Of a stretch of DNA of 41,876 bases, positions 20,099 to 41,658 are shown in pieces. The notes beneath the pieces are model-generated. The model was not told where the DNA came from. It did no database searches and saw only the letters and a list, made by a program, of their open reading frames with translations. Source of the DNA: a virus; IMG/VR virus record IMGVR_UViG_3300036860_000522, positions 1 through 41,876 of that record. One strand, 5' to 3'. How positions within the stretch are numbered: position 1 is the stretch's first letter; every line of letters starts with the position of its first letter. The translations under genes were made by a program, and so were the position numbers.

Positions 20099-20509
20099 AT
20101 GAAACAGTACCTCAAGGATTCCTGGCTGCTGCTGGCAATCATCATCGGCTTTACGCTCCTGAGCAGCGCGAGCAGCTGTGCGACGCACGCGCCGGCGACC
20201 CTATCGCCCGAGGCGCGGACGGCCTGGTACGGCACGCGCGTCATCAAAGCACTCGACGTATTGCGCGACAGCGCGATCGAGGCCCAGGCCCAGACGCCGC
20301 CACTGCTGTCTGAAGCGGTGACCCGATCGATCGTCGAGACGCATCGATCGCTGCTCGAGACGATTCACCAGGCGCCCCGCGGCTGGCCGGCGACGGTCAC
20401 GGCGGCCTTGGGCGAGTTGGAAGACGGCCTGCCGCCGGCCCAACGCGTGATCGTGCACCCCTACGTCGAGCTCACCCGCACCTTCCTCAAGGAGATCCCC
20501 CATGACTGA
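20099..20509 (+). CDS. Membrane-anchored or secreted lysis-region protein
   Basis: A 136-residue protein whose first 30 residues form a signal or anchor (SWLLLAIIIGFTLLSSASSC). The Cys at the end could be lipidated, but the lipobox is imperfect. The rest is helical. Its position in the lysis cassette and a small export-like N-terminus would fit a spanin-like or secreted accessory protein; the sequence does not decide this. It overlaps the next gene. Confidence 0.6.
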   Translation: MKQYLKDSWLLLAIIIGFTLLSSASSCATHAPATLSPEARTAWYGTRVIKALDVLRDSAIEAQAQTPPLLSEAVTRSIVETHRSLLETIHQAPRGWPATVTAALGELEDGLPPAQRVIVHPYVELTRTFLKEIPHD

Positions 20510-20759
20510 CGCTGACATGAGTCCGGGTGGCCTGCTGCTCGCGGCCGCGATTCAAGAACTGCCGGCGATCATCGAGGGCCTGCGCCGCCTGTTCACGACA
20601 GACCATCCGGAGGTGCCAGCCCCCACCGATGCCGAGGTCATCGAAGCCTTCAACGCGGCCTATGCGTCGTCCCTCGCGAAGGACCAGGCCTGGCTGGCCG
20701 CCCACCCGGAACCGCCGCCGGCGCCGGTTGGCGCGGACGATCCGGGCTCGGATCGATGA
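20502..20759 (+). CDS. Hypothetical lysis-region protein
   Basis: An 85-residue protein starting inside the 3' end of the previous gene and ending ATGA with the next. It is helical (GGLLLAAAIQELPAIIEGLRR, mildly hydrophobic) with a Pro-rich C-terminus. No family recognised. The tight overlaps on both sides support it as a real coupled gene. Confidence 0.6.
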   Translation: MTDADMSPGGLLLAAAIQELPAIIEGLRRLFTTDHPEVPAPTDAEVIEAFNAAYASSLAKDQAWLAAHPEPPPAPVGADDPGSDR

Positions 20760-22066
20760 GTCTCCTGAGCGCCCTGCTCTCGCTGCTCACGTTTCGCCGC
20801 CGCTCGGCGCCGCGGCCGCCACCGGTGCCGAGCCCCCCGCCACGCCGCGCGATCGCCGTCGCGCAGGTGCCGGGCGGCGCCGGCGCCGTCGTCTCGCTCG
20901 CCGAGCGTATGGATGTCACGAATGCGGACGGCTACGTCTGCTTCACCGACGTGCCGGCCGATCGCGTGAGCGTCGCGCTGGCGATCGATGCGGAAGGCTA
21001 CGAGCCGTACCGGGTAGCTGTGACGATCCCGCCCGACGGCCGCAATTACAACCTGATGGTCGGCGGGTCGCAGAATGTGTCCGATCAGATCGCGTGTCCC
21101 GCGCTCGTACCGACACGACCGATCCTGCCGGGCCTGGTCGTGCGGCGCGCCGTCTTCGCGCTCGCCACGGGCGAGCGCTGGACGGCGATCGAGTGTTCCG
21201 ACTTTCAACTCTTCCAACGGTTTCTCCGCGGCCAGGACCTTGCGCCCGTGCTCGCGCAGCGCGCCATGCTCGGGTTCAATCTGCTGCGCGTGTTCCTGAC
21301 CTGCGATCAGATGTTCAATCTGCATCCAACCGATTACCCGGCGTACTTCGCGGATCTGGTGACCTTCGTCCGCCTGCTCGCGCGCAACGGTCTGCGGCCG
21401 GAGCTCGTCGTGTTCGCGGACGCCACGCTCGTGATGCCGATTCCCTCGAACCAGGTCGCGTTCTTCGCCAGCGTCGTGACCACCCTGCAGCCGGTCGCCG
21501 ACCAGGTGCTCCTCGAGCTCGTCAACGAAAATGATCAGCGCGTGAATACGATCGATCCGCGCGCGTTTCCGCCGCCGGCCGGGATCCTGGCGGCGCATGG
21601 ATCGAATGGCAGCCAGGCGGTGCCGGTCCGCCCAGCGTGGAGCTACGAAACGTTTCACACCAACGATGCGCCGGAGTGGTGGCGGAAGACCGGCCACAAC
21701 GCGATGGAGCTCGCCGCCGGCGGGCCCGGCTTCAGCGGCAGCGGCAAGCCAATCCTCACGAACGAAAACACCCGTTGTCCCGATCGGTTCAACAGCGTGC
21801 TGCGCGCGTTCGATGCGGCCGCCGGCGCCGCGCTGCTCTGCGCCGGGAGCTGCTTTCATTCGGTCCACGGCAAATCGAGCGAGCTCTTCGACGGCGACGA
21901 GCTCGCCTGTGCGCAGGCGTGGGTCGAAGGCGCGCGGTCGGTGCCGCTGGAATTCACCGAGGGCGCGTATCGCCATCGCACGGACCTCGAGGGTCCGGGC
22001 ATCTTGCGCGCGTACGACCGCGTGCTCCCCGATGGCCGGAGTGCGGTCGTGCGGATTCGGACCTAG
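20756..22066 (+). CDS. Glycoside-hydrolase-like protein (clan GH-A type TIM barrel)
   Basis: A 436-residue protein: a short hydrophobic N-terminus and Pro-rich linker, a carboxypeptidase-regulatory-like beta domain (about residues 35-105, with GYEPYRVAVTIPPDGRNYNL), then a barrel-like domain. Within the barrel, QVLLELVNENDQRV carries an Asn-Glu pair as in the acid/base strand of clan GH-A (e.g. GH5) enzymes, and KPILTNENTR could supply the nucleophile Glu. Its place between holin-like genes and the endolysin suggests a glycan-degrading role at the cell surface or in lysis. The substrate is unknown; the fold is assigned by eye. Confidence 0.6.
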   Translation: MSLLSALLSLLTFRRRSAPRPPPVPSPPPRRAIAVAQVPGGAGAVVSLAERMDVTNADGYVCFTDVPADRVSVALAIDAEGYEPYRVAVTIPPDGRNYNLMVGGSQNVSDQIACPALVPTRPILPGLVVRRAVFALATGERWTAIECSDFQLFQRFLRGQDLAPVLAQRAMLGFNLLRVFLTCDQMFNLHPTDYPAYFADLVTFVRLLARNGLRPELVVFADATLVMPIPSNQVAFFASVVTTLQPVADQVLLELVNENDQRVNTIDPRAFPPPAGILAAHGSNGSQAVPVRPAWSYETFHTNDAPEWWRKTGHNAMELAAGGPGFSGSGKPILTNENTRCPDRFNSVLRAFDAAAGAALLCAGSCFHSVHGKSSELFDGDELACAQAWVEGARSVPLEFTEGAYRHRTDLEGPGILRAYDRVLPDGRSAVVRIRT

Positions 22067-22105
22067 GTACCATGGTACTTCGCTGAGCTCATTCAAAAGG
22101 TGCCC

Positions 22106-22528
22106 ATGCTGACGTGTTATGACATCGCGCAGCGCTTTGTCGGGATGCGGGAAACGCCGGGCCTCGCCTCGACGCCGATGATCTTGGCGATGCTGCGATT
22201 AGACGATGCGTCCGTGGCTGACGATGAGACGCCCTGGTGCGGAGCCTTCGCCAGCTTTGTCGCCTGGCTACTCCGCCGGCCGCGGAGCAAGTCCCTCGCG
22301 GCGCGCTCCTGGCTGCATGTCGGCCGGCCGATCGAGCTCGAGGATGCGGTCGCCGGCGACGACATCGTGGTGTTCGAACGCGGCGCCGGCGGCCACGTCG
22401 GCTTCTATGCCGGGCGCAACAAAGATGGATCGGTCCTCATCCTGGGTGGCAATCAGTCGGATGCGGTCACGATTGCCGCGTTTCCGGTGGCCCGCCTCCT
22501 CGGCGTGCGCCGGCTCATCGATCGGTAA
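22106..22528 (+). CDS. Endolysin, NlpC/P60-like (TIGR02594-type) peptidase
   Basis: A 140-residue single-domain enzyme. The nucleophile Cys is in ETPWCGAFASFVAWLL and the catalytic His in GAGGHVGFYAGR, with the GNQSD turn following, the order of small TIGR02594/CHAP-like cysteine peptidases. It would cleave the peptide part of peptidoglycan to release phage. No signal peptide, so holin-dependent export is expected. ATG 22106 has an aaaagg site 5 bases upstream; GTG 22100 is possible. Confidence 0.82.
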   Translation: MLTCYDIAQRFVGMRETPGLASTPMILAMLRLDDASVADDETPWCGAFASFVAWLLRRPRSKSLAARSWLHVGRPIELEDAVAGDDIVVFERGAGGHVGFYAGRNKDGSVLILGGNQSDAVTIAAFPVARLLGVRRLIDR

Positions 22529-22596
22529 CAGACACACAGGTCGTGCGCGGCAGCAATTGGCTCAACGCGACCACGCAACAAAAACTGAGAGACCAG

Positions 22597-22785
22597 ATGC
22601 CACATGACAAAAACGGGGAGCTGCTCGCGGTCGGGGATCTGGTGATGATCCCGGCGCGGGTCACGGCCATTCACGCGACTGAGGACTACTGCAACTGCGA
22701 GCTCGAGCTGATCGAGCGGATGCCACCCGACAACACGGTCGACACGAAGAGCTGCAATACGCGACAGGTCATCAAGTCGGTGTAG
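22597..22785 (+). CDS. Small hypothetical protein
   Basis: A 62-residue protein (MPHDKNGELLAVGDLVMIPA) with two Cys (YCNCELELIER) and a strand-rich, SH3-like small-barrel look (DLVMIPARVTAI). It follows the endolysin after about 70 bp. No named family recognised; small barrels of this kind are common in phage accessory genes. Confidence 0.55.
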   Translation: MPHDKNGELLAVGDLVMIPARVTAIHATEDYCNCELELIERMPPDNTVDTKSCNTRQVIKSV

Positions 22786-22836
22786 ATTACAGACCGTGAC
22801 GGGCGGGCCGTCGCCGAAAGGGGAGACCATACGCAT

Positions 22837-22896
22837 ATGGCCAAAGGTCGCAAATCCGCGATGGGCAAACGCACCCCGAAAAAGAAGGCGGCGTGA
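22837..22896 (+). CDS. Possible 19-residue basic peptide
   Basis: ATG 22837 is preceded at a proper distance by ggggag and opens a 19-residue peptide (MAKGRKSAMGKRTPKKKAA) with nine Lys/Arg. It is too short to prove by sequence alone. The ribosome site and the composition make it worth keeping as a candidate. Confidence 0.4.
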   Translation: MAKGRKSAMGKRTPKKKAA

Positions 22897-22928
22897 CGCG
22901 CTGATCGCGTCTGTCTCACACGCATCGG

Positions 22929-22954
22929 TCGGGTCGGCCCCGCGGCCGACCCGA
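22929..22954 (+). terminator. Strong GC-rich hairpin after the lysis genes
   Basis: An 11-bp perfect stem (22929-22939 with 22944-22954) closes a 4-base loop in the gap after the last lysis-region genes. There is no T tract, so it is not a classic intrinsic terminator; it may still end or attenuate late transcription. A perfect TATAAT (22977-22982) follows without a clear -35 box. Confidence 0.4.
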
Positions 22955-23020
22955 GCGTCCGCCCGCATCCCGGCCGTATAATTCGTCCGCGCGTTCTCCA
23001 CGGACCGACCATGCGGCTCG

Positions 23021-23260
23021 ATGGCTGATCTCAGTACCGTGCAGTGGCGGGTGATCGTCGCCGGCCGGCGGATCCCCTGCCTTCTCACCCGCGTGCACGG
23101 CGTGATCCAGCTCCGCGTCCCCGACTATCCTCACGTGCAGGCCTCGGGGCCCGATGTGGCCACCGCGATGCAGCGCGCCGAAGCGGCCCTGCGCCATATG
23201 CTGCGGGCCCGCGCGCGCGCTGCCGTCCCCGATCACGCTGCACGCCGGCCGGACGCGTGA
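23021..23260 (+). CDS. HicB-like small protein
   Basis: A 79-residue protein with the pattern of a HicB-type N-terminal domain: strand VIAGRRIPCLLTRV, then VIQLRVPDYPHVQASGPDV and helix ATAMQRAEAALRHML. In HicAB systems this partner is the antitoxin, but no HicA-like toxin is seen next to it, so the function may differ. It overlaps the next gene as GTGA. Family assignment by pattern. Confidence 0.6.
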   Translation: MADLSTVQWRVIVAGRRIPCLLTRVHGVIQLRVPDYPHVQASGPDVATAMQRAEAALRHMLRARARAAVPDHAARRPDA

Positions 23261-23532
23261 CACCGACCTGGCTCGATCTCCTCCTCGCCTTCTGTGGCGG
23301 CTGGCTGCTGCGCGTCGCCGCCGATCCCTGGCTGCGGCCTGTCCCCTCGACCGACGCGCCATCCGAGCCGCCCGTCTATCTGTCCCCGGCCTGCGCTCAC
23401 GAACAGCACGGGTACTGCCTGCGGGTGTGTCCGGACAGTGCTCGGCAAGCTGGTGTCTGCCCTGGCTTCTGTCAGTGCGTCTGTCACCGCGGGCAGGCCG
23501 TGGAGCCTGAAGCCGGACCCGTTCGTCGGTGA
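23257..23532 (+). CDS. Membrane-anchored Cys-rich small protein
   Basis: A 91-residue protein from GTG 23257. One N-terminal membrane segment (WLDLLLAFCGGWLLRVA) is followed by a domain with about nine Cys (CAHEQHGYCLRVCP; CPGFCQCVCH) that could bind zinc or form disulfides. Its association with the following two membrane proteins suggests a lysis or envelope role. No known family recognised. Confidence 0.6.
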   Translation: MTPTWLDLLLAFCGGWLLRVAADPWLRPVPSTDAPSEPPVYLSPACAHEQHGYCLRVCPDSARQAGVCPGFCQCVCHRGQAVEPEAGPVRR

Positions 23533-23535
23533 CGA

Positions 23536-23730
23536 ATGGATTGCAAGCGGACACTGGCGGTGCCATTCTGGTTCCTGATGTTGGTGAGCGTCGTCGTCGC
23601 CTTCCCGTACGAGCTCGCGATCGAGCGCGGCTGGATCCCGGAGTCGGCGCTGTTCCTCTGGACCCTCGCGGCGGTCATCGTCCTCGTGTCGGAACTCGGC
23701 TGGCGCGCGTACGCGAATCGGGACACATGA
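23536..23730 (+). CDS. Two-TM small membrane protein, holin candidate
   Basis: A 64-residue protein with two hydrophobic segments (VPFWFLMLVSVVVAFPY and ALFLWTLAAVIVLVSELGW) and a short charged turn between them. The size and topology fit a class II holin, or a partner of the single-TM proteins nearby. It overlaps the next gene as ATGA. Confidence 0.6.
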   Translation: MDCKRTLAVPFWFLMLVSVVVAFPYELAIERGWIPESALFLWTLAAVIVLVSELGWRAYANRDT

Positions 23731-23870
23731 CCTGGGTCGAGTTCGCCGACAAGCACTTCCTCGGGCTCAGCCTCATCGTCCTGTTCGTCACCTGGGTGGT
23801 GGGCGAGATCCTGATCGCGTGGCTCCGCGTGAAACGTGGAACATTTCAGGCCTCTGATCGCCGCCCCTGA
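23727..23870 (+). CDS. One-TM small membrane protein
   Basis: A 47-residue protein with one membrane segment (LGLSLIVLFVTWVVGEILIAW) and a basic C-terminus. It is coupled to the two-TM gene by ATGA; the pair may act as holin and antiholin. Its 3' end overlaps the convergent regulator gene by about 25 bp. Confidence 0.55.
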   Translation: MTWVEFADKHFLGLSLIVLFVTWVVGEILIAWLRVKRGTFQASDRRP

Positions 23871-24052
23871 CGCGTCCGATTGAGCCGCGTCGCCAGCCGC
23901 GCCAACTCCCGCTGGGCAAGCGGATCGGGCGCGGTCCGCCCCTGCTCCCAGTTCTCGACCGTCCGCCCGGAGCGAGCGAAGCGCTGACCGAACGTTTCCA
24001 CGTCTTCGCCGAGCGCTTGGCGTAGCCCGCGAATCGTGTCGGCGGTCATCAT
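23846..24052 (-). CDS. XRE-family HTH regulator, small
   Basis: A 68-residue protein from ATG 24052 with a good ribosome site (gggaga). It is one helix-turn-helix domain of XRE/YiaG type: TIRGLRQALGEDVETFGQRF then ARSGRTVENWEQGRTAPDPL. It is at the prophage edge next to attP, downstream of the small accessory operon on the same strand. It may regulate that operon through the palindrome at 24842-24862, an inference only. Confidence 0.75.
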   Translation of the reverse strand: MMTADTIRGLRQALGEDVETFGQRFARSGRTVENWEQGRTAPDPLAQRELARLATRLNRTRQGRRSEA

Positions 24053-24263
24053 CGGATCTCCCGATCGCGCACCATTCTGCCAGGCGGTGCGGCGGTCCTT
24101 GCAGATCATCGGGCGGCCATACTGGAGACGCGACCGGCCGGCGCCATTCGCGACACGGAGCGCCTTGCGGCGCGCCACACGCGGGACACGCGGCGGACGC
24201 GATCGCTCGGCGTTCCCGCTGCTTGCTGCCGCTGCTGGGGGTGTGCCGCGGAGCATCAGGCTC

Positions 24264-24344
24264 TCACGTCAGCCACGCGTATCTTGGCCACCACGACGGA
24301 TAGGTCTCACCCCAGATCGTGACGGTGTAGGTGAGCGTCGCCAT
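24264..24344 (-). CDS. Possible 26-residue peptide
   Basis: A short Trp/Tyr-rich frame (MATLTYTVTIWGETYPSWW) whose start overlaps the stop of the upstream gene as TGATGG, the same coupling as between the two genes before it. Composition is strand-like. It may be a real mini-gene at the end of the operon. Confidence 0.4.
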   Translation of the reverse strand: MATLTYTVTIWGETYPSWWPRYAWLT

Positions 24345-24535
24345 CACCGCGCCTCCGTCACGTAGCCGCAATGCCAGCAGCGCACCTCGATGCGTGCGTG
24401 CAGATACGCGGGTAGCGTGCGCAGTACGGCGCGGGCGGCGTCCAGCGTATCGACAATCGCTTCGGGTGTCCCGCCCACGGCGGGCAGAACGAAATAGCTG
24501 ACGATATGCTGATGGTCCGTGGTCGAGAGCGCCAT
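24344..24535 (-). CDS. Hypothetical small protein, accessory operon
   Basis: A 63-residue protein (MALSTTDHQHIVSYFVLPAV) with a helix DTLDAARAVLRTL and a C-terminal single Cys pair (RCWHCGYVTEAR). Its ATG overlaps the stop of the gene upstream on the minus strand. No family recognised. Confidence 0.55.
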   Translation of the reverse strand: MALSTTDHQHIVSYFVLPAVGGTPEAIVDTLDAARAVLRTLPAYLHARIEVRCWHCGYVTEAR

Positions 24536-24789
24536 CACCGCCCCGCGCCGAACCGCGCCGCAAAGACAGCCCGTGCCTCGGACTCGGCGCAGCCGACTTC
24601 GCCCCACGCCGCGGCGGCCGTCACAGCGTCGAGCCACTGCCGGTACGTCGCCTCCGCCATCACCTGCAAGCCGGCCGGCTGATGGAGCGGATGCCGACCC
24701 GTGGAGCACAGCTCCACGCCGGTCAGATCGTGCCGCTCGAAATAAAAGTCGTTGATATTGAGGGGATCGTGCTGAGCACTGCGGGCCAT
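24535..24789 (-). CDS. Hypothetical protein, first gene of the accessory operon
   Basis: An 84-residue protein (MARSAQHDPLNINDFYFERH) with a helical C-terminal half (YRQWLDAVTAAAAWGEVGC). It has a good ribosome site (agagga, 5 bases) and lies about 45 bp downstream of the strong promoter at 24841-24869. Being next to attP and repressed-looking, the operon is a candidate for lysogenic conversion genes, but no function can be assigned. Confidence 0.6.
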   Translation of the reverse strand: MARSAQHDPLNINDFYFERHDLTGVELCSTGRHPLHQPAGLQVMAEATYRQWLDAVTAAAAWGEVGCAESEARAVFAARFGAGR

Positions 24790-24840
24790 GTCGTCCTCTG
24801 ATGGAGAGCGGCGCGGGCGGGAGGCGCGCGACGTGAGAGC

Positions 24841-24869
24841 AGAATACGCTCCTAGCGTATTCCTGTCAA
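24841..24869 (-). promoter_or_regulatory. Sigma70-type promoter with embedded operator palindrome
   Basis: On the minus strand TTGACA (24869-24864) is followed after exactly 17 bases by TATTCT (24846-24841). Between and over the -10 box lies a perfect palindrome: 8-bp arms GAATACGC (24842-24849) and GCGTATTC (24855-24862) around five bases. A protein bound there would block RNA polymerase. It drives the operon 24789-24264. Confidence 0.8.
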
Positions 24870-25256
24870 CAGAATATTCGGGTGAGTTTCGCGTCCGCCA
24901 TCATGGGCGGCGCGTACGCGAATCGGGAGTGACACGGGAGTGAGGCGGGAGTGGAGAGACCCTTGTAGACCTCTACAGGCCCAACTGCTCGACGTCCGGC
25001 TGCAGCCGGAAGGGCCACACCTGGAACGATTTCGGGGATTTCGACGCGATCGCCGGGCGGCCGTGAATCTCACTCTCTCTGAGATTTCACAATTGCATTG
25101 TGATGATGCAGATTCGTCAGAGCGATGGCCGACGGGGATTCTGAGTGTTTCCGAACAAATCTGAACGCCTCTGAGGCGTCGGGTGGCACCGATGGGTGGC
25201 ACCCAGTTGGAATTCAGCAAATAACTGAGGAAAAGTGCGCATGTTCGACATTGACG
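24870..25256. promoter_or_regulatory. Gene-free attP left-arm region with repeats and palindromes
   Basis: No gene is supported over these 387 bases. They hold three direct copies of CGGGAGTG at 24924, 24935 and 24946 (11-bp spacing, about one helical turn). There is also a near-palindrome TGTAGA-cc-TCTACA (24964-24977), an inverted repeat AATCTCA/TGAGATT (25066-25086), and a perfect palindrome CACAAT-tgc-ATTGTG (25088-25102). Two copies of GGGTGGCACC follow (25181, 25194). The layout fits integrase arm sites plus binding sites for an excisionase or host factor. Confidence 0.6.
25141..25203 (+). repeat. Integrase arm-type repeat block, left copy
   Basis: Closely matches 25372-25434: shared CTGAGT-TT-CCGAAC, TCTGAAC-CCTCTGAGG and two tandem GGGTGGCACC units (25181-25190, 25194-25203). 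The two blocks lie on either side of the tRNA-derived core in the same orientation. Confidence 0.75.
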
Positions 25257-25656: not shown

Positions 25657-26739
25657 TCAGCTGATCTGCAAACGCCCTTCGAGCTTCTTCCCGATGCGCT
25701 TCTGGCGCATGCGCAGAATCGGACCATAGAACCGCCGCGTCGTGTCGATCGACGCGTGGCCGAGCAGCGCCTGCAGGTCGCCGAGATCGGCGCCGGCTTC
25801 GATGGCGTCGATGGCGACCGAGTGCCGCGCGTTGTACAACGGGATCGCCTTCGGCCAGCCGTGCGCACGCGCGACCGCGAGCAGCTGCGACGTGTCGTAG
25901 GGGCCGAGCGCGCCGGCGGCGAGCAGTTGCTGCACGGCGACACGCATCTCGGCGTTCAGGTGAATCGCGTGGGTGGGGCCGCCCTTCGCGCCGCGCACGA
26001 TCCAGAACTGTTTCCGGAGATCGAAGTCCTCCGCGATCGCCCGCTGCAGCTGCGCCGGCCGCTGCCCGGTCGTGACGAGCAGCAGGTAGCGCGCGTAGTC
26101 CTGCCGCGCGGGACTGTGCAGCGGCGTCCAGCGCGCCCGCTGCTTGAGTGCCAGGGCGACGCGCGTCACGCGGTCGATGGGGACGCCGACGGGCGTCGCC
26201 GCCGGCGGCTTCGGCCGCGGCACCTCGTCGCACGGCGTCTTCGCCGTCGGCCCGTCGAGCAGTTTGTAGAGATGCCGGAGGACGCGCCAGCGCTGCTGCA
26301 GCGTCTTCTCCGACGCCGGCGCCTCGAGCGCGTGCCGTGTGCGGGTGCCGCGGCCGCCCGTGAACGTGCCGGCGGTGCGCCAGGCGGCGAGGGCCAGGCG
26401 GACGTCGGCCGCCGTGATGCGGCCGCGCATCTTCGGGCCGAGGCGATCGATCCAGGCGCGCAGATGCGACCGGTCCGCCGCGCTGCCCGGGCGCCCCGCG
26501 ATCTGTTTGCAGTACTTCACCGCATCATGAGCGAGCGTCCCGCGCGCCGCCTGGCCCGGCGCCGCGGCGCGGAGATCGAGGCGCAGTTGATCGCGCTGCG
26601 TGCGCAGCACCTCGAGGTCGGTGTCGAGGGGAAAGCGGAGCTCCTGCTGCGCCCCATGGACCTTGACCTTGACCGCGCAGCCGGTCGCGTCCTGGTAGAT
26701 GCACGAGTCGAGGCGCCGGCGTCGGCCTTTGCGTCCCAT
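25657..26739 (-). CDS. int: Tyrosine-family integrase
   Basis: A 360-residue phage integrase. The first 100 residues suit an arm-binding N-terminal domain, followed by a SAM-like core-binding region (SEKTLQQRWRVLRHLYKLL). The catalytic domain has the first Arg in LLLVTTGQRPAQLQRAI, a Lys in IVRGAKGG, the second Arg in YNARHSVA, the His in LLGHASIDTT and the nucleophile Tyr in TRRFYGPI. The His of the usual H-x-x-R box is Tyr here, a known tolerated variation. It would recombine the attP core at 25257-25305 with a host initiator tRNA gene. Its 3' end faces attP. Confidence 0.9.
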   Translation of the reverse strand: MGRKGRRRRLDSCIYQDATGCAVKVKVHGAQQELRFPLDTDLEVLRTQRDQLRLDLRAAAPGQAARGTLAHDAVKYCKQIAGRPGSAADRSHLRAWIDRLGPKMRGRITAADVRLALAAWRTAGTFTGGRGTRTRHALEAPASEKTLQQRWRVLRHLYKLLDGPTAKTPCDEVPRPKPPAATPVGVPIDRVTRVALALKQRARWTPLHSPARQDYARYLLLVTTGQRPAQLQRAIAEDFDLRKQFWIVRGAKGGPTHAIHLNAEMRVAVQQLLAAGALGPYDTSQLLAVARAHGWPKAIPLYNARHSVAIDAIEAGADLGDLQALLGHASIDTTRRFYGPILRMRQKRIGKKLEGRLQIS

Positions 26740-32760: not shown

Positions 32761-33312
32761 ATGCGAGCGACCGACCGACCGACCGACCGACCGACCGACC
32801 GACCGACCGACCGATTTTCGCTGCCGGCCGATCTCCGTCGCCGCCTGGCGGCGATCGCCGCGGCGGAGGGCCTGACCGTGCGTGAGCTCGTGATCGACGC
32901 CGTCCGCGAGCTCGTCGCCGCCTATGCCGCTGACGAGGACCCGTTCGTGGCGCCACGCCGCACCGAGCCGCTCGATCCCACGATTCGGAGATGCGTCGGT
33001 TTTGCGCGGGCATGGGGATTCGACTGGCTGTTGATGGGAAACATCTACGCCTATCGCTCGACGAATCCCAAAGTGCTGCACACGGTTGACGATCCCGTCG
33101 GTCCGCTGAATCAGGACGCGCTGAAGTGGATGACGCAGAAGGCAGAACTCGTCATCGCAGCGTGGGGAAGGGCCCAATTGAATTGCTACGGCCAGACACT
33201 CGCCGGCTGGATTCTCTCCCTGGAACACACGCGCTGTTTGGCGCTGAATCACGATGGGTCGCCGAGGCATCCGCTGTATGTATCAGCCGCGATGACGCCG
33301 TGCCGAATCTGA
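32761..33312 (+). CDS. Ribbon-helix-helix / DUF1643 fusion with a tetranucleotide tract
   Basis: A 183-residue protein. After M-R-A it runs through a (T-D-R-P) repeat encoded by 11 CCGA units. About residues 19-55 then resemble a ribbon-helix-helix segment (FSLPADLRRRLAAIAAAEGL, TVRELVIDAVRELVAAY). From about residue 77 it matches DUF1643: DPTIRRCVGFARAWGFDWLL, NIYAYRSTNPKVLH, AELVIAAWGRAQLN, and CLALNHDGSPRHPLYV. The usual N-terminal strand of DUF1643 (the LNPS motif) is missing and seems replaced by the RHH part. The tract makes the gene a phase-variation candidate. It ends TGATG with the HNH gene. Confidence 0.78.
   Translation: MRATDRPTDRPTDRPTDRFSLPADLRRRLAAIAAAEGLTVRELVIDAVRELVAAYAADEDPFVAPRRTEPLDPTIRRCVGFARAWGFDWLLMGNIYAYRSTNPKVLHTVDDPVGPLNQDALKWMTQKAELVIAAWGRAQLNCYGQTLAGWILSLEHTRCLALNHDGSPRHPLYVSAAMTPCRI
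32771..32814 (+). repeat. Tetranucleotide tract, 11 x CCGA
   Basis: Eleven exact CCGA units (44 bp) begin ten bases after the A of the start codon, preceded by a near-unit GCGA. The unit is 4 bp, so gain or loss of one copy shifts the frame. Confidence 0.97.
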
Positions 33313-33650
33313 TGGCGATGGCGCCCCTGCATCCGTGTCCGCATCCGCACTGCCGGCGGCTCGTGCGATCCGCTCACTGTGCGGAACATACGCGCCAGGC
33401 CGATCAACGCCCGAACGTCGACATCCGGCGCTGGTATCACACGGAGCGCTGGTTCGCGCTGCGGCGCGAGGTCCTGCGCGCGGACCCGTACTGTGGGCCG
33501 TGTCTCGCGGAAGGCCTCGGCGCTGTGCCGGCGCGCCATGTCGATCACCGCGTGCCGCATCGCGGCGATCCGGCGCTGTTCTGGGATCGCGCCAATCTCC
33601 AAGGCCTGTGCCCATCGCATCACTCGGCGAAGACGGGAAAGGGACAGTAG
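33312..33650 (+). CDS. HNH endonuclease, packaging-type
   Basis: A 112-residue protein. An N-terminal zinc part (CPHPHCRRLV, then HCAEHTRQ) leads to WYHTERWFALRREVLRADPY, CGPCLAEGLGAVPARHVDHR and LQGLCPSHHSAKTGKG. The last two give the HNH core (DH...N...H). Such short HNH proteins sit near terminase genes of HK97-like phages and assist DNA cleavage during packaging. Here it is about 3 kb before the terminase. Confidence 0.85.
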   Translation: MAMAPLHPCPHPHCRRLVRSAHCAEHTRQADQRPNVDIRRWYHTERWFALRREVLRADPYCGPCLAEGLGAVPARHVDHRVPHRGDPALFWDRANLQGLCPSHHSAKTGKGQ

Positions 33651-34594: not shown

Positions 34595-35173
34595 ATGAAG
34601 TCTCGCGATGCCTGTGAAATCTGCGGAAACCCGTGTCCGTACGCGCACCAGTATGTGTGTTCGCCCGACTGTAGTCGCGAGCGCAAACGACGGATCGACA
34701 GAGAGCGTTACTACCGGCGAGCTCACAACGCGCCGAGGACGCGCGTCTGTCGTGAGTGCGGGACACTGTTCACGACGAGCCCGCCAGATCGAAGAAGAAA
34801 GTTCTGCAAGGAGAAGTGTACTCGTCGCCATCGCGCGAAAAGGCCGCAGGTTAAGGATCGCAAGAATAGGTCAGCCGGGCAGGCCCGTAGGAGTCGCATC
34901 CGGCAAAAGCAAATGCGAGGAATCGACAGAATCGCGATCCTCGAGCGCGATCGATGGACGTGTCAGATCTGTGGATGTCCGACACCGAAAAGTCTGAGAG
35001 GTTCAACGAACCCAAGAGCGCCGGAATGCGCTCACATTGTCTCGATTGCGGCAGGTGGGGATGGATCTCCGAGCAACCTCCAATGTGAATGTCGCCAATG
35101 CAACAACGAGAAGGGTGTCGCGGACGCCAGCCGCCGCTATAGCGATGCCGGGCAGGAAAGCAGCGGCGCATGA
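34595..35173 (+). CDS. HNH endonuclease with multiple zinc knuckles, mobile-type
   Basis: A 192-residue protein. Zinc parts CEICGNPCPYAHQYVCSPDC and CRECGTLFTT with KFCKEKC (about residues 8-80), a basic linker (GQARRSRIRQKQMRGIDR), and an HNH core: RWTCQICG, ECAHIVSIAAGGDGSPSNLQ, CRQCNNEKG. The start follows an A/T-rich run (atttaattt), and the gene is less GC-rich than its neighbours, consistent with a mobile homing-type endonuclease. It is convergent with the Ku gene. Confidence 0.8.
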   Translation: MKSRDACEICGNPCPYAHQYVCSPDCSRERKRRIDRERYYRRAHNAPRTRVCRECGTLFTTSPPDRRRKFCKEKCTRRHRAKRPQVKDRKNRSAGQARRSRIRQKQMRGIDRIAILERDRWTCQICGCPTPKSLRGSTNPRAPECAHIVSIAAGGDGSPSNLQCECRQCNNEKGVADASRRYSDAGQESSGA

Positions 35174-35184: not shown

Positions 35185-36003
35185 TCAGGCGCGGCGCCGC
35201 GCCTTCTTCGTCACCGCCTGCAGACTCGCCTCGAGCGCTTCCCGCATGGTCACGACCGGCGCGACGTCCACCACCGGCGGCACCACAATCTCCTCGCCGG
35301 CGATCTTGGCGGCGATGAGGCGCCGCAAATCCTGCTGGTACTGGTCGGTGAAGTCGACGAGGTTCAACGGGCGCGTGCCGGCCGCGATCAGCTGTTTCGC
35401 CAGGCGCACCTGGTCGAGCGGCACCGCGGTGACCGACGGCAATTCATCGCCGGCGACCGCCTCCACCGCCCGCATTTCAGCGGCGTGATGCAAGGTGTGG
35501 AGCAGGAAGAAGAGCGCCCGCGTGGTGAACGCCGGCGGCCGCCGCACGGCGACCAGATATTCCCGCCCGTAAATCGCCAGCTTCCCGATGCCGATCGTGT
35601 CGAGCAGCGCCGCGCCGATCACGGCGAACGGCTCCACCGCGTGCGGCCCATCCGGGAGGACGAAGTAGCTGCGATCGATCACGGCCGGCTCGAGCGCCGC
35701 GGCCGGCGCGAACTGCGTCAGATCGATCACGCGGGTCGAGGGCGGCCGCACCGCCTCGAGCTCGGCCTCGAACAAGACGACGTAGCGGCCGGTCTCGAAT
35801 TCGAAGCCTTTCACGATCTCGCCGGCGAGGACGGCATGGTCGCAGGTCGGACACCACTTCCGCTGCTGGATGCGGGTGGAACAGGGCGCGTGGAGCTGGT
35901 TGAGCGCGAGCGTGTCGGCGGATTCGGTCGCGGGAAACACCTTGATCGGGATCTGGACCCGACTGATTTGCAGGACGCCTTTCCAGACGGGGCGCGCCGC
36001 CAT
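35185..36003 (-). CDS. ku: Ku-family DNA end-binding protein
   Basis: A 272-residue protein with the bacterial/phage Ku core: ARPVWKGVLQISRVQIPIKV at the N-terminus, LHAPCSTRIQQRKWCPTCDH, AGEIVKGFEFETGRYVVLFE, ALLDTIGIGKLAIYGREYLV and LAKQLIAAGTRPLNLVDFTD. A basic, Ala-rich tail follows. Ku homodimers encircle DNA ends for end joining. Mycobacteriophages Omega and Corndog use their Ku with host LigD to circularise genomes with short overhangs. Here it is on the minus strand, coupled by TGATG to an HTH gene, between an HNH gene and the terminase. GTG 36006 is an alternative start. Confidence 0.88.
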   Translation of the reverse strand: MAARPVWKGVLQISRVQIPIKVFPATESADTLALNQLHAPCSTRIQQRKWCPTCDHAVLAGEIVKGFEFETGRYVVLFEAELEAVRPPSTRVIDLTQFAPAAALEPAVIDRSYFVLPDGPHAVEPFAVIGAALLDTIGIGKLAIYGREYLVAVRRPPAFTTRALFFLLHTLHHAAEMRAVEAVAGDELPSVTAVPLDQVRLAKQLIAAGTRPLNLVDFTDQYQQDLRRLIAAKIAGEEIVVPPVVDVAPVVTMREALEASLQAVTKKARRRA

Positions 36004-36287
36004 CACTCACTCAGGGCTTCCTGCGCGTCCGGAAAGGGCTGCACCGTGGCGTACGGCCGCGGAATCTTCTGCCAGCCGATCGCGGTGAGAAAGGCGATGA
36101 AATCGTCGCGCAAGACCTTGTAGATACGTCGGCGCCCTTGCGACGCCGTGCAGATGGTCTGCAACTGCACCGTCGTGCCGTCCGGCGCCGTCACGCCGGT
36201 GTTGATCGCGCGGCGGATCCACTCGGTGGAGCAGTTCATCCATTCCGCACAATCGCGCGTGGTGAGGACGTCGACGGGTTGTCTCAC
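36003..36287 (-). CDS. HTH DNA-binding protein (excisionase-like) upstream of Ku
   Basis: A 94-residue protein from GTG 36287: DVLTTRDCAEWMNCSTEWIR then RAINTGVTAPDGTTV, and a wing RRRIYKVLRDDFIAFLTAIG. This is a HTH_17-type reader. It overlaps Ku by TGATG. It may repress the Ku pair or act as an excisionase. Upstream on the same strand lie 9-bp repeats (36323-36358). Confidence 0.65.
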   Translation of the reverse strand: MRQPVDVLTTRDCAEWMNCSTEWIRRAINTGVTAPDGTTVQLQTICTASQGRRRIYKVLRDDFIAFLTAIGWQKIPRPYATVQPFPDAQEALSE

Positions 36288-36322
36288 GAGGCGACTATTG
36301 CACGACCTCGCCCGGAATCGTT

Positions 36323-36358
36323 GAGCCAGCCGAGCCAACGGAGCCAACGGAGCCAACG
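36323..36358 (+). repeat. 9-bp tandem repeats upstream of the small terminase
   Basis: Four units, one diverged (GAGCCAGCC) and three exact (GAGCCAACG), in the divergent gap between the HTH/Ku pair and the terminase. Possible operator for the HTH gene or a terminase binding (cos/pac) site. Confidence 0.8.
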
Positions 36359-36476
36359 GACCAGATCCCACGCATGCCCACGTCGGCTACAACCGAGACA
36401 TCGCGTAACAACACGGCGCGCGGACGTGCCACGGCGGCGGCGTCGGGACCGGATGGGTTCCACGGGAAGGCGATGC

Positions 36477-36989
36477 GTGCGAGGGCGAAAACCGAAGCCG
36501 ACCGCGACGCGGCGGCTCGAAGGCAATCCCGGCAAGCGTCCCCTGAATGCGGCCGAACCGCAGCACGATCTTCCCACTGAGGCGTTCGACGAGCCGCCGG
36601 CGGCGCTCACGACCGATCGGGCGGCGGCCGCCGAGTGGCGGCGCCTGGCGCCGATGCTGCGGCGATCGCGCACGGTGGGCGAAGCCGATCGCAGCGCGCT
36701 CATCGCGCTCTGTCTCGAGTGGGCCCGCTACCTCAAGGCCTCCACCGCCATCAATAAAAAAGGGCTCGTCCTCTACACGAAGACGCACTATCCGATCCCG
36801 AATCCATACCTCCCCATCGCGACGCGCGCCCTGGCCAACTGCACGAAGCTCTGGCCGGAGCTCGGGCTGACGCCGTCGAGTCGGTCACGCGTGGTCGCGA
36901 CACCGGCGCCGGCGGAGACCGATCCCTTCGCGGAGTTCGACGCGCCGATCGGCGGGGGACCGGCGCCGACCGCCTCGAGACCGCACTGA
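36477..36989 (+). CDS. terS: Terminase small subunit, P27 family
   Basis: A 170-residue protein with the P27/TIGR01558 start: GRKPKPTATRRLEGNPGKRP, then FDEPPAALTTDRAAAAEWRR and the middle DRSALIALCLEWARYLKAST, ending in a helical YLPIATRALANCTKLWPELG. It recognises the packaging site and positions the large subunit. Start: GTG 36477 with gggaagg upstream. It is followed one base later by the large-subunit start. Confidence 0.9.
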   Translation: MRGRKPKPTATRRLEGNPGKRPLNAAEPQHDLPTEAFDEPPAALTTDRAAAAEWRRLAPMLRRSRTVGEADRSALIALCLEWARYLKASTAINKKGLVLYTKTHYPIPNPYLPIATRALANCTKLWPELGLTPSSRSRVVATPAPAETDPFAEFDAPIGGGPAPTASRPH

Positions 36990-36990
36990 G

Positions 36991-38667
36991 ATGCACGTGG
37001 TCGACGCGTACGCAGAAGCGGTAAGGCGCGGCGACGTGCCGGCCGGCAAGTATCACGTGCTTGCGGCGAAACGGCATCGCCGCGATCGCGCGCGCGAGGC
37101 CACGCCGGCGTTTCCCTACCGCTTCGATGCCGACCGCGCCGACCGGTTCTTCCGCTTCGCCGAGCAGTTGCGGCACTACAAGGGGCAATGGGCGGGGCAG
37201 CTGATCGTCCTCCAGCCGCATCAGCAGTTCCGGCTCGGATCGCTCTTCGCGTGGGTCCACGTGGAGACGGCGCTCCGGCGGTTTCGATCCGCCTACAACG
37301 AGATCCCGCGGAAGAACGGCAAAAGCCTCGAGGCGGCGATCGTGGCGATCTACGCCACGTTTTTCGACGGCGAACCCGGCAGCGAGGGGTACTGCGTCGC
37401 GACCAAACGCGACCAGGCGAAGATCGTCTTCAATGATTGCAAGAACCTGATCCGCTCGAGCGGCTTGCGGCGGCGCATCACGGCCTGGTCCGCCAACCTG
37501 CATCGCGACGACACGGCCTCGAAGCTCGAGCCGCTCGGCGCCGACCGCGATTCGACCGACGGCCTCAACCCGCAGATCGTCATCATCGACGAAGCCCACG
37601 CCCTGAAACACCGCGGCATGATCGACGTGATGGAAACGGCGACCGGCGCGCGCCGGCAGCCGATCATCACCTGGATCACGACCGCCGGCGACGACCCGCA
37701 GTCGCCCTGCGGCGACCAGCACGATTACGCGTGCAAGGTCCTCGACCAGGTGCTCGCGGATGAGACCTTCTTTGCCTTCATCGCGCACGCGGATCCCGAG
37801 GACCTCGCCGGCGATCGCTGGCTGAGCGAGGCGACGGCCCGCAAGGCGAATCCCAACTGGGGCGTCTCGGTGCTCCCCTCCGATCTGGCCGCGCTCGCGA
37901 CCAAGGCGCGCCACATGCCGGCCGCCGCGGCCGCGTATCAGCAAAAACGCTTGAACGTCTGGGTCAATACGACGGCGCCCTGGCTGTCGATGGAGGGCTG
38001 GCGGCGCGGACAGACGACAACGTGGACCGAGGCGGACCTGCGCGGCCAGCCGTGCTGTCTCGGCATCGACATGAGCTCGAAGATCGACCTGACGGCCGTG
38101 GTCGCGATGTTCCCGCCGACCGAGACGCGCCCCTCGTGGCGGCTCATCGCGCGGTGTCTCACGCCCGACGACACGCTCGACGAGCGCGCGCTGCGCGACC
38201 GCGCGCCGTATCGCCAGTGGGTGAAGCAAGGCGCGCTGCAGACCAATCCCGGCAACCGGATCGACCAGGCGCAGGTGCTCGTGATTGTCCACGCGCTCGC
38301 GGACCGATTCGACGTGCAGCAGATCGGCATCGATCCGTGGAACGCCGGCAACCTGGCGACGGAGCTCGGCGACGACGGCTTTCAGGTGATCGAGGTGCCG
38401 CAGACGCTGCAGCAGATGTCGGCGCCGGCGAAGGACTTTGAAGCCGACGTGCTCGATGGCCTGGTCGACGCCGGCGGGAATCCGCTCGTGGCCTGGTGCG
38501 CGAGCAATGTCGTGGTGCAGTCCGACAACAAAGACAACATCTACCCGACCAAAAAACGCAGCCGCGGCCGGATCGATCCGATCACCGCGGCCTTGATCGC
38601 CCGGAAACTCGCGGATCTGGAGCACGGCGAGCTGCGCGCCGAGGACCCAGTGGTGGTGACGACATGA
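36991..38667 (+). CDS. terL: Terminase large subunit
   Basis: A 558-residue HK97-type (Terminase_1) enzyme. The ATPase has YNEIPRKNGKSLEAAIVAIY (Walker A, RKNGKS) and NPQIVIIDEAHALKHRG (Walker B). The nuclease has CCLGIDMSSKIDLTAVVAMF with the first catalytic Asp, and IDPWNAGN and SRGRIDPITAALIA later. It pumps DNA into the prohead and cuts it. It ends ATGA with the next gene. Confidence 0.96.
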   Translation: MHVVDAYAEAVRRGDVPAGKYHVLAAKRHRRDRAREATPAFPYRFDADRADRFFRFAEQLRHYKGQWAGQLIVLQPHQQFRLGSLFAWVHVETALRRFRSAYNEIPRKNGKSLEAAIVAIYATFFDGEPGSEGYCVATKRDQAKIVFNDCKNLIRSSGLRRRITAWSANLHRDDTASKLEPLGADRDSTDGLNPQIVIIDEAHALKHRGMIDVMETATGARRQPIITWITTAGDDPQSPCGDQHDYACKVLDQVLADETFFAFIAHADPEDLAGDRWLSEATARKANPNWGVSVLPSDLAALATKARHMPAAAAAYQQKRLNVWVNTTAPWLSMEGWRRGQTTTWTEADLRGQPCCLGIDMSSKIDLTAVVAMFPPTETRPSWRLIARCLTPDDTLDERALRDRAPYRQWVKQGALQTNPGNRIDQAQVLVIVHALADRFDVQQIGIDPWNAGNLATELGDDGFQVIEVPQTLQQMSAPAKDFEADVLDGLVDAGGNPLVAWCASNVVVQSDNKDNIYPTKKRSRGRIDPITAALIARKLADLEHGELRAEDPVVVTT

Positions 38668-38846
38668 AGCGCACAGCCCCCGGCCGGCCGCCGCTCGACG
38701 ACGACGATCCCTCGACGACGATTTGCGTCAAGGTGCCGAGCAAGTTGTTCGACGAGCTCGACGACCGCGCGCGGCGTGCGCGGGTCACCATCCAGGAGAT
38801 CATCCGGCGCACCCTTCCGCATGAGCCAAAAAGATATCCAAAATAG
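38664..38846 (+). CDS. Ribbon-helix-helix protein downstream of terminase
   Basis: A 60-residue protein (MKRTAPGRPPLDDDDPSTTI) with the RHH pattern: strand CVKVPSKLFDELDDRARRAR, helix VTIQEIIRRTL. It is coupled to terL by ATGA. Its last eight codons are the 5' part of the 36-bp repeat at 38821-38856. Small RHH proteins at this place may regulate late genes or bind packaged DNA ends. Confidence 0.75.
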   Translation: MKRTAPGRPPLDDDDPSTTICVKVPSKLFDELDDRARRARVTIQEIIRRTLPHEPKRYPK

Positions 38847-38856
38847 GCGCCCCGCC
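38821..38856 (+). repeat. 36-bp perfect direct repeat, copy B
   Basis: Identical to 349-384. This copy covers the last codons and the stop of the RHH gene plus ten bases of spacer. It marks the left edge of the fibre cassette. Confidence 0.9.
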
Positions 38857-38880
38857 TCGAGCCTTCCACACTGACCTCTG

Positions 38881-38943
38881 ATGCTGACGAGTGCCGCGGG
38901 ATCGATCGACTGGTCCATCGCGTACGAAACGGCGGCGGACTAG
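38881..38943 (+). CDS. Possible 20-residue leader peptide
   Basis: A short frame (MLTSAAGSIDWSIAYETAAD) ending TAG directly before the ATG of the beta-helix gene. No clear ribosome site. It could couple translation to the gene or be chance. Confidence 0.25.
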   Translation: MLTSAAGSIDWSIAYETAAD

Positions 38944-40308
38944 ATGGCGTTCACGAACTTCTATCTCGATGCCGGCGGCAACGACATGAACGCGGGCTCG
39001 GTGCAAAACCACGCCGCCGCCGCCGGCCCGTCCACCAATGGCGATTGGGGCAACGCCGCCGCGAATCGGTTTACGGCGGCCTCGGGCACGCCCTTCAGTG
39101 CGGTGAATGTCAACGACTGGGCCAGCGTGTACGTGGATGGCACGACCAGCGGCGCGGTCTATGTCGCCCAGGTGACGGCCGTCAATGCGGGTGGCGCATC
39201 CATCGACCTCAGCACCACGGCGAAGTACGGCACGGCGCCAAGTAATAGTGCGACGGGGCGTAGTTGTCGCGTCGGCGGCTCGTGGCTCTCGGAATTCCCG
39301 CTGACGACGCTCACCGGGACGGTTCCGGCCAGCACGAAAATCAATTTCAACAACAACCTGACGATCACGGCCTCGCGGACCATCGCGCTCGCAGGCTTGA
39401 CGACCGCGCCGCTCTGGTTCAGTGGCTACAACACGAATCCGGGCGATCTCGACAACGACACGACGAACAGCCTCGCCAAGCCGATCTGGACGTTCAACGC
39501 CAACTTTGGGCTGGTGACCAGTGGCGCGCATCAAATCTGGTCGGGCCTGAGCGTGAAGGGGAATGCGTCTGGTGTTGTGTGGCAATCGTCGTCACAGAGT
39601 TTGATGATGTCTCGCTGCCGCGTCGAAAATACGAGCAGCAACGCGGCAGCCTACGCGTTCCAGCCCACGTTCACGAACACCATCGCGTATTCCTATTTCA
39701 AGGCTCCCAGCACGGGCACCACGAACGGTGTGGTCGTGGCGAATGGCACCGGGTCCACGTATCTCGGGTGTGTCTTCGACGGGGGCGGACTCGCGGGCTT
39801 AAATCTGGCCAACAATCAGAATCTCGTCGTGCGCTGTGTCTTTCTGACGAATACGGGCGCGGGCATTCTCTGCAACAGCGCCCAAGCGCGGATTATGGGG
39901 TGTACGTTTTATGGCGCGACCGTCGACGGCGTGAAGTGGACGGGCGCCCCAGCGGCGGGGGCCAGCGTGGTGGGGTGTCTCTTCAGCGGCGTGAACGGCG
40001 GGGCGGCGACCACCAACGGCATCAACAACGCGTCGGGCACGAACACGAATCTCGTCTTCCGCGCGTGCAACGACTACTACAACGTGACGAATCGCGAAGT
40101 GGGCTTCGGCGACAGTCCCGAATTCTTCCCGCAGACCGACAGCAGTCCCGTGGCGACGAGTGCGACGAATCTGACGCCCGTCGCCACGGCGAACGCGCGC
40201 GCCCGCGGCTTTCCCGGCCTCTTCGAGAACGCACTGTTCAGCGGCTACAGCGACATCGGCGCGGTCCAATCGCACCCACCACCCTTCGGCCATCCGGGGC
40301 TCGGATAA
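38944..40308 (+). CDS. Right-handed beta-helix (pectate-lyase-like) tailspike/fibre protein
   Basis: A 454-residue protein. The N-terminal 110 residues hold MAFTNFYLDAGGNDMNAGSV, a common start for beta-helix virion proteins. The middle is a run of short helical coils with repeating patterns: LVTSGAHQIWSGLSVKGNAS, STYLGCVFDGGGLAGLNLAN, VRCVFLTNTGAGILCNSAQA, IMGCTFYGATVDGVKW. These resemble pectate-lyase-type solenoids used by phages to bind or cut polysaccharide. First complete gene of the repeat-flanked cassette. Confidence 0.78.
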   Translation: MAFTNFYLDAGGNDMNAGSVQNHAAAAGPSTNGDWGNAAANRFTAASGTPFSAVNVNDWASVYVDGTTSGAVYVAQVTAVNAGGASIDLSTTAKYGTAPSNSATGRSCRVGGSWLSEFPLTTLTGTVPASTKINFNNNLTITASRTIALAGLTTAPLWFSGYNTNPGDLDNDTTNSLAKPIWTFNANFGLVTSGAHQIWSGLSVKGNASGVVWQSSSQSLMMSRCRVENTSSNAAAYAFQPTFTNTIAYSYFKAPSTGTTNGVVVANGTGSTYLGCVFDGGGLAGLNLANNQNLVVRCVFLTNTGAGILCNSAQARIMGCTFYGATVDGVKWTGAPAAGASVVGCLFSGVNGGAATTNGINNASGTNTNLVFRACNDYYNVTNREVGFGDSPEFFPQTDSSPVATSATNLTPVATANARARGFPGLFENALFSGYSDIGAVQSHPPPFGHPGLG

Positions 40309-41658
40309 ATGAAGCTCACGAAAAAGGCCGGGAGCACGAGCGAGATCTGGGAGGTCTTCATCCAGACCACCGCCGCCTTCGACGGCTCCGGCCTCACGGG
40401 CCTGACGAATGCGTCCGGCAGCCTGACGGCGTACTACCATCGCAACACGGACACCACGGCGACGGCGATCGCGCTCGTCTCGATGACGGTGGGCACGTTC
40501 ACATCGAGCGGCTTCAAGGAAATCGACAGCGCCAACATGCCCGGCTGGTATCAGTTCTGCCCGCCGAATGCGGCCCTCGCCAGCGGGGCGAAGTCCTGCA
40601 GCTTTCTCCTGAAGGGCGCGACCAACATGGCCGCGCTGCCGATCGAAGTGCAGCTCACCGCGGTCGATCCGGATTCGGCCACGGCGTTCATCACGGGCGT
40701 CAACGCCGTCGCGCCGCCGACGAATTGGAATCTCCTTTCGATCGACGCCAGCGGCCGCGTGGATCTCGCCAAGTGGATTGGGTCCGCGCCCGATGCGCTC
40801 TCGTCGGGCAAAATCCCCACGGACGTCAAGCTCTGGCTCACCGGCACGCCAAATGCCTTGCAGAGTGGACGGGTCGACAGCTATCTCGGCGCCGTCGCCG
40901 CCGGCGTGATCGCCGCGGCGAGCTTTGCCGCGAACGCGCTCGATGCCGTGTGGAGCACGACGGCGCGCACGCTGTCGAGCGGCGCGATTGCGGCTGCCAC
41001 GTTTGCCGCGAATGCGTTGGATGCGGTGTGGGCGACCACGACGCGGCGGCTGAGCGACGGCACGAACATCGTGCTCGCCAAGGGCGTCGGCGTCACGGGC
41101 TTCACCGATCTGTCCGCCGCGCAAGTAAACACAGAATGTGATACCGCGCTGAGCGATGTCGGCGTTACTGGCACGGTCACCGGCCGGATCGACGCAGCGA
41201 TCAGTTCGCGCCTGGCGACCGGCACGGTGGCGAGCGACGTCACCGCGATTAAAGCCAAAACCGACGGGCTGCCCAGCGATCCGGCGGACGCCTCGGATAT
41301 CGCGTCGGCGTTCGGCACGGTCAACAGCACGCTCAGCATCCTCGCGGGCTACGTCGATACCGAGGTGGCGGCGATCAAAGCGAAGACCGACAACCTCCCG
41401 GCGGCGCCGGCGGCGGTCGGCGACATCCCCTCGGCCGCGAGCATCGCCGATGCTTACCTGGATCGCGCCAATGGGATCGAAACCGGCTTGACGCCGCGCC
41501 AGGCGGATCGGTTGATGGTCGCCGCGCTCGTCGGGAAGGCCTCCGGCATGGGGGACAACGCGCCGGTGTTTCGCGATTTCGGTGATACGAAAGACCGCAT
41601 CACGGCGACGACGGACAGCGACGGCAACCGGCTCACGGTCACCGCGGATGCCAGCTGA
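40309..41658 (+). CDS. Fibre-like structural protein with internal repeats
   Basis: A 449-residue protein with a beta-rich N-terminus (STSEIWEVFIQTTAAFDGSG) and repeats in the middle: the segment AASFAANALDAVWSTTARTL is followed 27 residues later by AATFAANALDAVWATTTRRL. Paired linkers DVTAIKAKTDGLPSDPAD and EVAAIKAKTDNLPAAPAA follow. The helical, heptad-like C-terminal half suits a trimeric fibre shaft. Translationally coupled to the beta-helix gene. Confidence 0.75.
   Translation: MKLTKKAGSTSEIWEVFIQTTAAFDGSGLTGLTNASGSLTAYYHRNTDTTATAIALVSMTVGTFTSSGFKEIDSANMPGWYQFCPPNAALASGAKSCSFLLKGATNMAALPIEVQLTAVDPDSATAFITGVNAVAPPTNWNLLSIDASGRVDLAKWIGSAPDALSSGKIPTDVKLWLTGTPNALQSGRVDSYLGAVAAGVIAAASFAANALDAVWSTTARTLSSGAIAAATFAANALDAVWATTTRRLSDGTNIVLAKGVGVTGFTDLSAAQVNTECDTALSDVGVTGTVTGRIDAAISSRLATGTVASDVTAIKAKTDGLPSDPADASDIASAFGTVNSTLSILAGYVDTEVAAIKAKTDNLPAAPAAVGDIPSAASIADAYLDRANGIETGLTPRQADRLMVAALVGKASGMGDNAPVFRDFGDTKDRITATTDSDGNRLTVTADAS

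Follow-up and report, generated by a model that had tools for sequence, protein, structure and literature searches.

We describe a true phage Ku in a new setting, linked to the terminase: in the window, the whole IMG/VR virus record IMGVR_UViG_3300036860_000522 (41,876 bp), which comes from a soil phage whose host probably belongs to the Acidobacteriota, a Ku gene lies beside the terminase genes on the opposite strand, and its product probably helps to close or guard the ends of the phage DNA. Genome closure by non-homologous end joining (NHEJ) in phages has so far rested on a few mycobacteriophages. The phages described here add a second Ku lineage, probably from another bacterial phylum, in which Ku keeps a fixed place next to the packaging genes.

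The window is a nearly complete genome of a temperate siphovirus, and its contig appears, from the gene order, to be circularly permuted, the terminase pair sitting near the right contig end and the genes past TerL continuing into the portal gene at the contig start. It encodes a portal, a head-maturation protease, an HK97-type capsid and a tail lysozyme-like protein, together with a tyrosine integrase, a replication-initiation protein and a Holliday-junction resolvase. Two HNH genes lie within 3.4 kb of TerS, and the assignment of TerL to phrog_9 corresponds to HK97-type packaging with an HNH partner; in HK97, an HNH protein of the packaging type stimulates cos cleavage (PMC11331095). The stop of the likely packaging HNH gene is 11 bp from that of Ku, and homologues of the second HNH gene are placed between TerS and Ku in related phages. 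A CGAC microsatellite of about 13 copies (32764-32814), near the start of an open reading frame at 32761-33312 (phrog_3230), is a possible phase-variable tract. The features discussed below are collected in Table 1.

Table 1. Features of the window around the Ku gene, with the basis of each assignment.
Feature	Position	Strand	Basis
Tyrosine integrase	25657-26739	-	window
Second HNH endonuclease	33126-33650	+	phrog_144
HNH endonuclease, likely packaging HNH	34595-35173	+	PF01844 4.6e-6, phrog_1271 7e-21
Ku, 272 aa	35185-36003	-	PF02735, phrog_4873, PDB sequence match, AF2 model, 22-contig phage clade
HTH protein, 94 aa, HTHa family	36003-36287	-	GTG start 36287; direct sequence
Divergent intergenic region, 165 bp	36288-36452	.	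between HTH-Ku operon and TerS; gene boundaries
9-bp direct repeat GAGCCAACG x4.2	36323-36360	.	HTH/TerS intergenic region; TRF score 62
Terminase small subunit TerS	36453-36989	+	PF05119 2.3e-22, phrog_83 4e-41
Terminase large subunit TerL, HK97 type	36991-38667	+	PF03354 + PF20441, phrog_9

In both family and fold, the window gene encodes a bona fide Ku. Its product matches PF02735 at E 4.7e-30 (105 bits, against a cut-off of 25), phrog_4873 ('Ku-like DNA end binding') at 1.1e-35 and solved bacterial Ku structures at 1e-22 in a sequence search of the PDB, and the full Ku core claimed in a preliminary description of this DNA is thereby upheld. Structure prediction led to the same result. A poor AlphaFold2 model from 11 sequences (pLDDT 73) was replaced by one from 36 Kus of phages and bacteria (mean pLDDT 86), which superimposes on the Mtb Ku-DNA complex 9i91 with a Z of 18.5 and an rmsd of 3.4 Å over 226 residues (VIA-align) and on B. 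subtilis Ku-DNA with a Z of 17.5; its match to apo Mtb Ku covers the core and the C-terminus. The gene is predicted to encode a homodimeric Ku of the bacterial type. The open reading frame as called (35185-36006, minus strand) starts with a GTG at 36006, but since MAAR(P/A)TWKG opens the proteins of the relatives, the ATG at 36003 is taken as the true start and the GTG is set aside.

The protein consists of a beta-barrel core (residues ~4-234), a linker, a C-terminal helix (253-271) and a basic tail, KKARRRA, and both the minimal C-terminal region and the basic extended tail of bacterial Ku are present. Consensus residues L253, A256, L257, S260, L261 and V264 are common to the phage Ku family and to host Ku, the window protein having M at 253 where the family has L. 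The C-terminus of bacterial Ku has been tied to DNA binding, LigD contact and ligation, and since the core also binds LigD (PMC9638933), the C-terminal motif of the phage Ku is only suggestive. Position 254 (NLMEAL motif, alignment A5) is Met in 18/18 subgroup 6 Kus and mostly R, K or L in the phages, and is a candidate difference in LigD contact. Residues H38, C41, C51 and C54 (window 35836-35895) form an H-x2-C-x9-C-x2-C pattern that looks like a metal site; it occurs in phage and Vicinamibacterial Ku and is absent from Bryobacterales Ku. The phage Ku is under purifying selection, with a dN/dS of 0.17-0.20 in the two closest pairs.

Relatives were gathered from IMG/VR by scans with the window Ku, with phage Ku alignments and, in one case, with TerL, and about 22 distinct contigs were found to carry a Ku ~50-62% identical to that of the window. 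In an IQ-TREE phylogeny, 20 phage Kus of this clade group beside the chromosomal Ku of 32 subgroup 6 Acidobacteriota/Vicinamibacterales genomes; the branch uniting the phage and subgroup 6 Kus is well supported (97/96), that of the phages is weak (83/37), and the mycobacteriophage Kus fall elsewhere in the tree. Among 84,980 species genomes, the nearest cellular Kus likewise belong to subgroup 6 Acidobacteriota (46-54% identity), with at most 36% identity elsewhere among the 80 loci kept. Because these are the closest cellular Kus, we infer a Vicinamibacterial host, the Ku tree alone pointing to a host that is probably one of the Vicinamibacteria. A search of 162 Vicinamibacterales genomes revealed no such prophage, with distant TerL matches in five and a close one in none.

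The preliminary description called Ku well documented in only a few phages; phage Ku is indeed still very rare, but it is commoner than was implied. The phage collection holds 51 Ku records (50 from mycobacteriophages and one from a faecal contig), and two clear Ku matches were found in the BFVD library of viral structures. In a 2025 survey, the viral Ku proteins numbered 11, of which ten came from mycobacteriophages and the other from a Streptomyces phage (PMC11936186). A scan with a Bryobacterales-type Ku revealed no further terminase-linked lineage. Outside the clade, the 35940-40755 region of contig IMGVR 3300036819_000170 carries a Bryobacterales-like Ku (39757-40755) a few genes away from GroES- and GroEL-like genes. 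Ku occurs together with an ATP-dependent ligase domain in distant contigs (L021, on contig IMGVR 2925334634_000006 with Ku at 10001-10807, and L022), which may represent bacterial ku-ligase operons carried by misassigned or integrated elements. The idea of a ligase on the phage was discarded: the clade records searched have none, and the two distant contigs with a PF01068 match, G016 and G017, are outside the clade; in G016 the ligase adjoins Ku as in an ordinary ku-ligase pair.

The preliminary description had placed Ku beside the terminase and opposite to it, which holds in the window (TerS and TerL on the plus strand, Ku and HTH on the minus strand, 165 bp apart) and recurs in its relatives, Ku being transcribed away from the terminase operon in all clade members. 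In 19 non-redundant phages (the window, L006, L007, L009, L010, L011, L013, L015-L018, L025, L144-L147, L149, L150 and L250), Ku starts 0.45-5.6 kb from the start of TerS; Ku is also divergent in G007 and G062, where it lies ~10 kb and ~8 kb from TerS, and in G009, where Ku and terminase are split across the contig ends. As a rule, the interval holds the packaging HNH gene together with an HTH gene of the excisionase-like kind, and most HK97-type members have the HNH gene between TerS and Ku. TerL is mostly of phrog_9, with GpA/phrog_15 in G005, phrog_2 in G020 and a Terminase_3-like protein below the Pfam cut-off in G008, so that the divergent position is kept with all four unrelated types of terminase. 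In a 42-kb genome, the chance that a gene placed at random comes to lie no more than 6 kb from TerS on its divergent side is ~0.07; for four independent terminase contexts it becomes ~3e-5, by an arithmetic that ignores terminase exchange beside a fixed Ku. With GpA-type and phrog_2-type terminases adjoining Ku, the ends need not be short 3' overhangs, and the presence of Ku beside four unrelated terminases makes its link to the virion ends testable by a comparison of end structures. Ku is nevertheless accessory among phages with related TerL, being present in just 3/29 of those with at least 4 kb of upstream sequence, from which it follows that HK97-type ends do not in general need Ku.

Other genes also occupy this interval. 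In G007, the stretch between Ku and TerS (20400-25134) holds, on the terminase strand, what appear by eye to be sugar-nucleotide biosynthesis-like genes (aminotransferase, nucleotidyltransferase, oxidoreductase and epimerase-like), and DNA-methyltransferase-like genes lie between the Ku/HTH module and TerS in G009 (37-1278) and G012 (2312-2956). In both G009 and G062, the contig break falls between HNH and TerS, and an attempt to read virion ends from such breaks was dropped because G062 has a direct terminal repeat of ~127 bp, a sign of circular assembly.

The stop codon of the HTH gene and the Ku ATG overlap by one base (TGATG), the A of the ATG being the last base of the stop, and the two genes are therefore probably translationally coupled, in line with the overlap and joint control proposed earlier. 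The window HTH protein has no HTH profile above cut-off (DUF7229 at 0.0076, under cut-off), and its relatives match HTH_17 weakly. Two HTH families accompany Ku. HTHa, that of the window, adjoins Ku in L009, L012 (on G007), L013, L017 and L151, and is mostly found as two copies on the terminase strand, whereas the window has one copy, on the Ku strand. HTHb matches HTH_17 above cut-off (4e-9 to 2e-11) as well as phrog_66 and phrog_1840 ('excisionase and transcriptional regulator'), and its gene lies directly upstream of Ku on the Ku strand. In L250, no recognisable HTH gene was found between Ku and HNH.

The divergent region between the HTH-Ku operon and TerS is a candidate control region, possibly near cos. 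Its GAGCCAACG array (3 matches against 0.07 expected) is a putative operator for the HTH protein. Direct repeats of 9 bp precede 6/6 HTHa sites, with boxes that read GAGCCAACG in the window, GAGCCAACC in L009 and L013, GAGCAATCC in L012 and GAGCAACCG in L151, and 10-bp direct repeats with a core of about NAGTNGCGYS precede 7/12 HTHb genes (repeat period 9 versus HTH family, Fisher p 4e-4). Where HTHa genes are paired, the 9-bp array is found only before the gene nearer the terminase. Such phased repeats would be as expected for regulators of the Xis/Cox/Apl type, since promoters are repressed by recombination directionality factors (RDFs) like Apl, whose binding sites are direct repeats spaced by one helical turn (PMC7498355). 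The possibility that the repeats are TerS- or cos-binding sites was rejected because their period and sequence track the HTH family; the Terminase_3-type G008 (L013) shares its GAGCCAACC boxes with the HK97-type L009.

The preliminary description had noted that no ligase is seen on the phage and that one from the host would be needed. This proved sound: the window record contains neither a ligase of PF01068 or PF01653 nor a LigD polymerase domain, the clade records searched likewise hold no ATP- or NAD-dependent ligase (PF01068/PF01653) and no LigD polymerase domain, and LigD is present in the inferred host group. LigD polymerase domains were found in 31/32 of the subgroup 6 genomes that bear the related Ku, against 0/9 phages. 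Ku itself is already present in 109/162 genomes of the likely host order, and the phage copy may thus be redundant.

On balance, we consider it slightly more likely than not that Ku synapses the injected virion ends and that host LigD seals them, as with Omega and Corndog, here from a terminase-linked module. After injection, Ku would load on both ends of the linear phage DNA and bridge them, recruit host LigD, in part by means of its C-terminal helix, for closing the circle, and shield the ends from AddAB-type nucleases until they are sealed. The HTH protein, if of the Xis/Cox/Apl kind, would bind the phased repeats and autoregulate the HTH-Ku operon, and might regulate the terminase operon on the other side as well. 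Should cos be placed as in HK97, between HNH and TerS, Ku would be near the right virion end. In lambda, the right virion end enters first, and with the same order of entry Ku could be made early. The central mechanistic step, the joining of virion ends through host LigD, is our inference. The presence of LigD in the likely host group, the lack of a phage ligase, the C-terminal helix and purifying selection favour end joining over mere capping, and with the helix motif retained and no Mu Gam profile match, we lean towards end joining with LigD.

We think it rather unlikely that Ku serves end protection only, capping the ends against AddAB/RecBCD-type nucleases while cohesive-end annealing and host ligase A circularise the genome. 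AddAB-like PDDEXK nucleases are encoded by 12/12 subgroup 6 genomes tested, Ku also adjoins terminases that are not of the HK97 type, and there is a precedent in Mu Gam, which is proposed to protect linear phage DNA (PMC1378119). Against this, PF02735 is the sole Pfam match of the protein at E<=0.1, with no match to Gam, the helix motif of host Ku is kept and the apo Mtb Ku match spans the C-terminus as well as the core. The two functions overlap, however, since Mu Gam is itself reported to promote NHEJ with a host ligase (Bhattacharyya 2018, as cited in PMC8136500).

Still less probable is that Ku is a 'moron', cargo tolerated at a spot between the late operon and opposite genes and serving the lysogen or general break repair rather than the virion ends. 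The 26/29 phages with related TerL that are without Ku, the occurrence of Ku in other replicons such as plasmids (674 records) and the sister position of the phage lineage to host Ku would all fit cargo, but one Ku lineage with ~50% amino acid identity keeps its divergent place and its HTH partner beside four terminase types, and it does so under purifying selection. We give very little credence to a role in excision or re-integration rather than infection, with the HTH protein mainly an excisionase or lysogeny regulator: the matches of HTHb relatives to excisionase families, boxes phased as for RDFs and the tyrosine integrase of the window speak for it, yet that integrase is ~9 kb from the HTH-Ku operon, the boxes precede the HTH gene and do not lie at a known att site, and site-specific recombination needs no Ku.

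A broader and more doubtful reading is that Ku and the excisionase-like HTH protein together make up an 'end module' in phages of Acidobacteriota, portable and linked to the terminase, which would join or guard ends whatever the terminase. If true, NHEJ would be a general phage means of starting infection and not a mycobacteriophage speciality. The closeness of phage Ku to host Ku also offers material for learning what LigD recruitment needs, and the phased-repeat control region of the HTH-Ku operon is now available for study.

Among the closest known systems are the mycobacteriophages Omega (cluster J, gp206) and Corndog (cluster O, gp87), likewise with a bacterial-type phage Ku and no phage ligase, in which Ku and host LigD are reported to circularise the genome (Pitcher 2006, as cited in PMC4351075, PMC3706429 and PMC7719229). 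Phages of the Omega cluster and Corndog have 4-nt 3' ends (PMC3706429, PMC4351075), NHEJ circularisation has been predicted for the cluster of Courthouse, and the Ku of cluster J has an Lsr2-like tail at its end (PMC3706429). We compared Courthouse and WXIN, of the Omega cluster, and Ashwin, another, smaller mycobacteriophage that bears Ku. Courthouse TerL and window TerL both belong to phrog_9, with a weak direct BLASTP match (E=4e-4), Courthouse gp1 is an HNH protein that matches phrog_1271 as does that of the window, with HNH near the terminase in both, and in Courthouse, as in the window, transcription of Ku leads away from the genome end that meets the terminase once the circle is closed. 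The differences are considerable: window Ku is 25-32% identical to mycobacteriophage Ku and has a separate place in the tree, and it lies beside the terminase, whereas in Courthouse the gene is set far inside a long leftward arm, with ~10 kb between it and the right end. The mycobacteriophage records compared have no terminase within 5-6 kb around Ku and no excisionase-like HTH gene directly coupled to it. HK97, with a 10-nt 3' overhang (PMC11331095), makes clear that the length of the overhang cannot be read from an HK97-like TerL alone. The window HTH protein is small, as are Apl of phage 186, P2 Cox and lambda Xis, and like them has next to it a divergent control region where direct repeats follow one another at about one helical turn (PMC7498355); it differs from them in matching no HTH profile above cut-off, and its binding to the boxes is only predicted. 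Mu Gam is likewise a phage protein that binds DNA ends, and it has been proposed to shield the linear DNA of the phage (PMC1378119); window Ku differs from it in lacking a Gam profile match and in having the C-terminus of bacterial Ku. The chromosomal Ku of Vicinamibacteria, which comes with LigD, has the same C-terminal helix motif and basic tail as the phage Ku, whereas the phage Kus group apart and are linked to the terminase instead of LigD.
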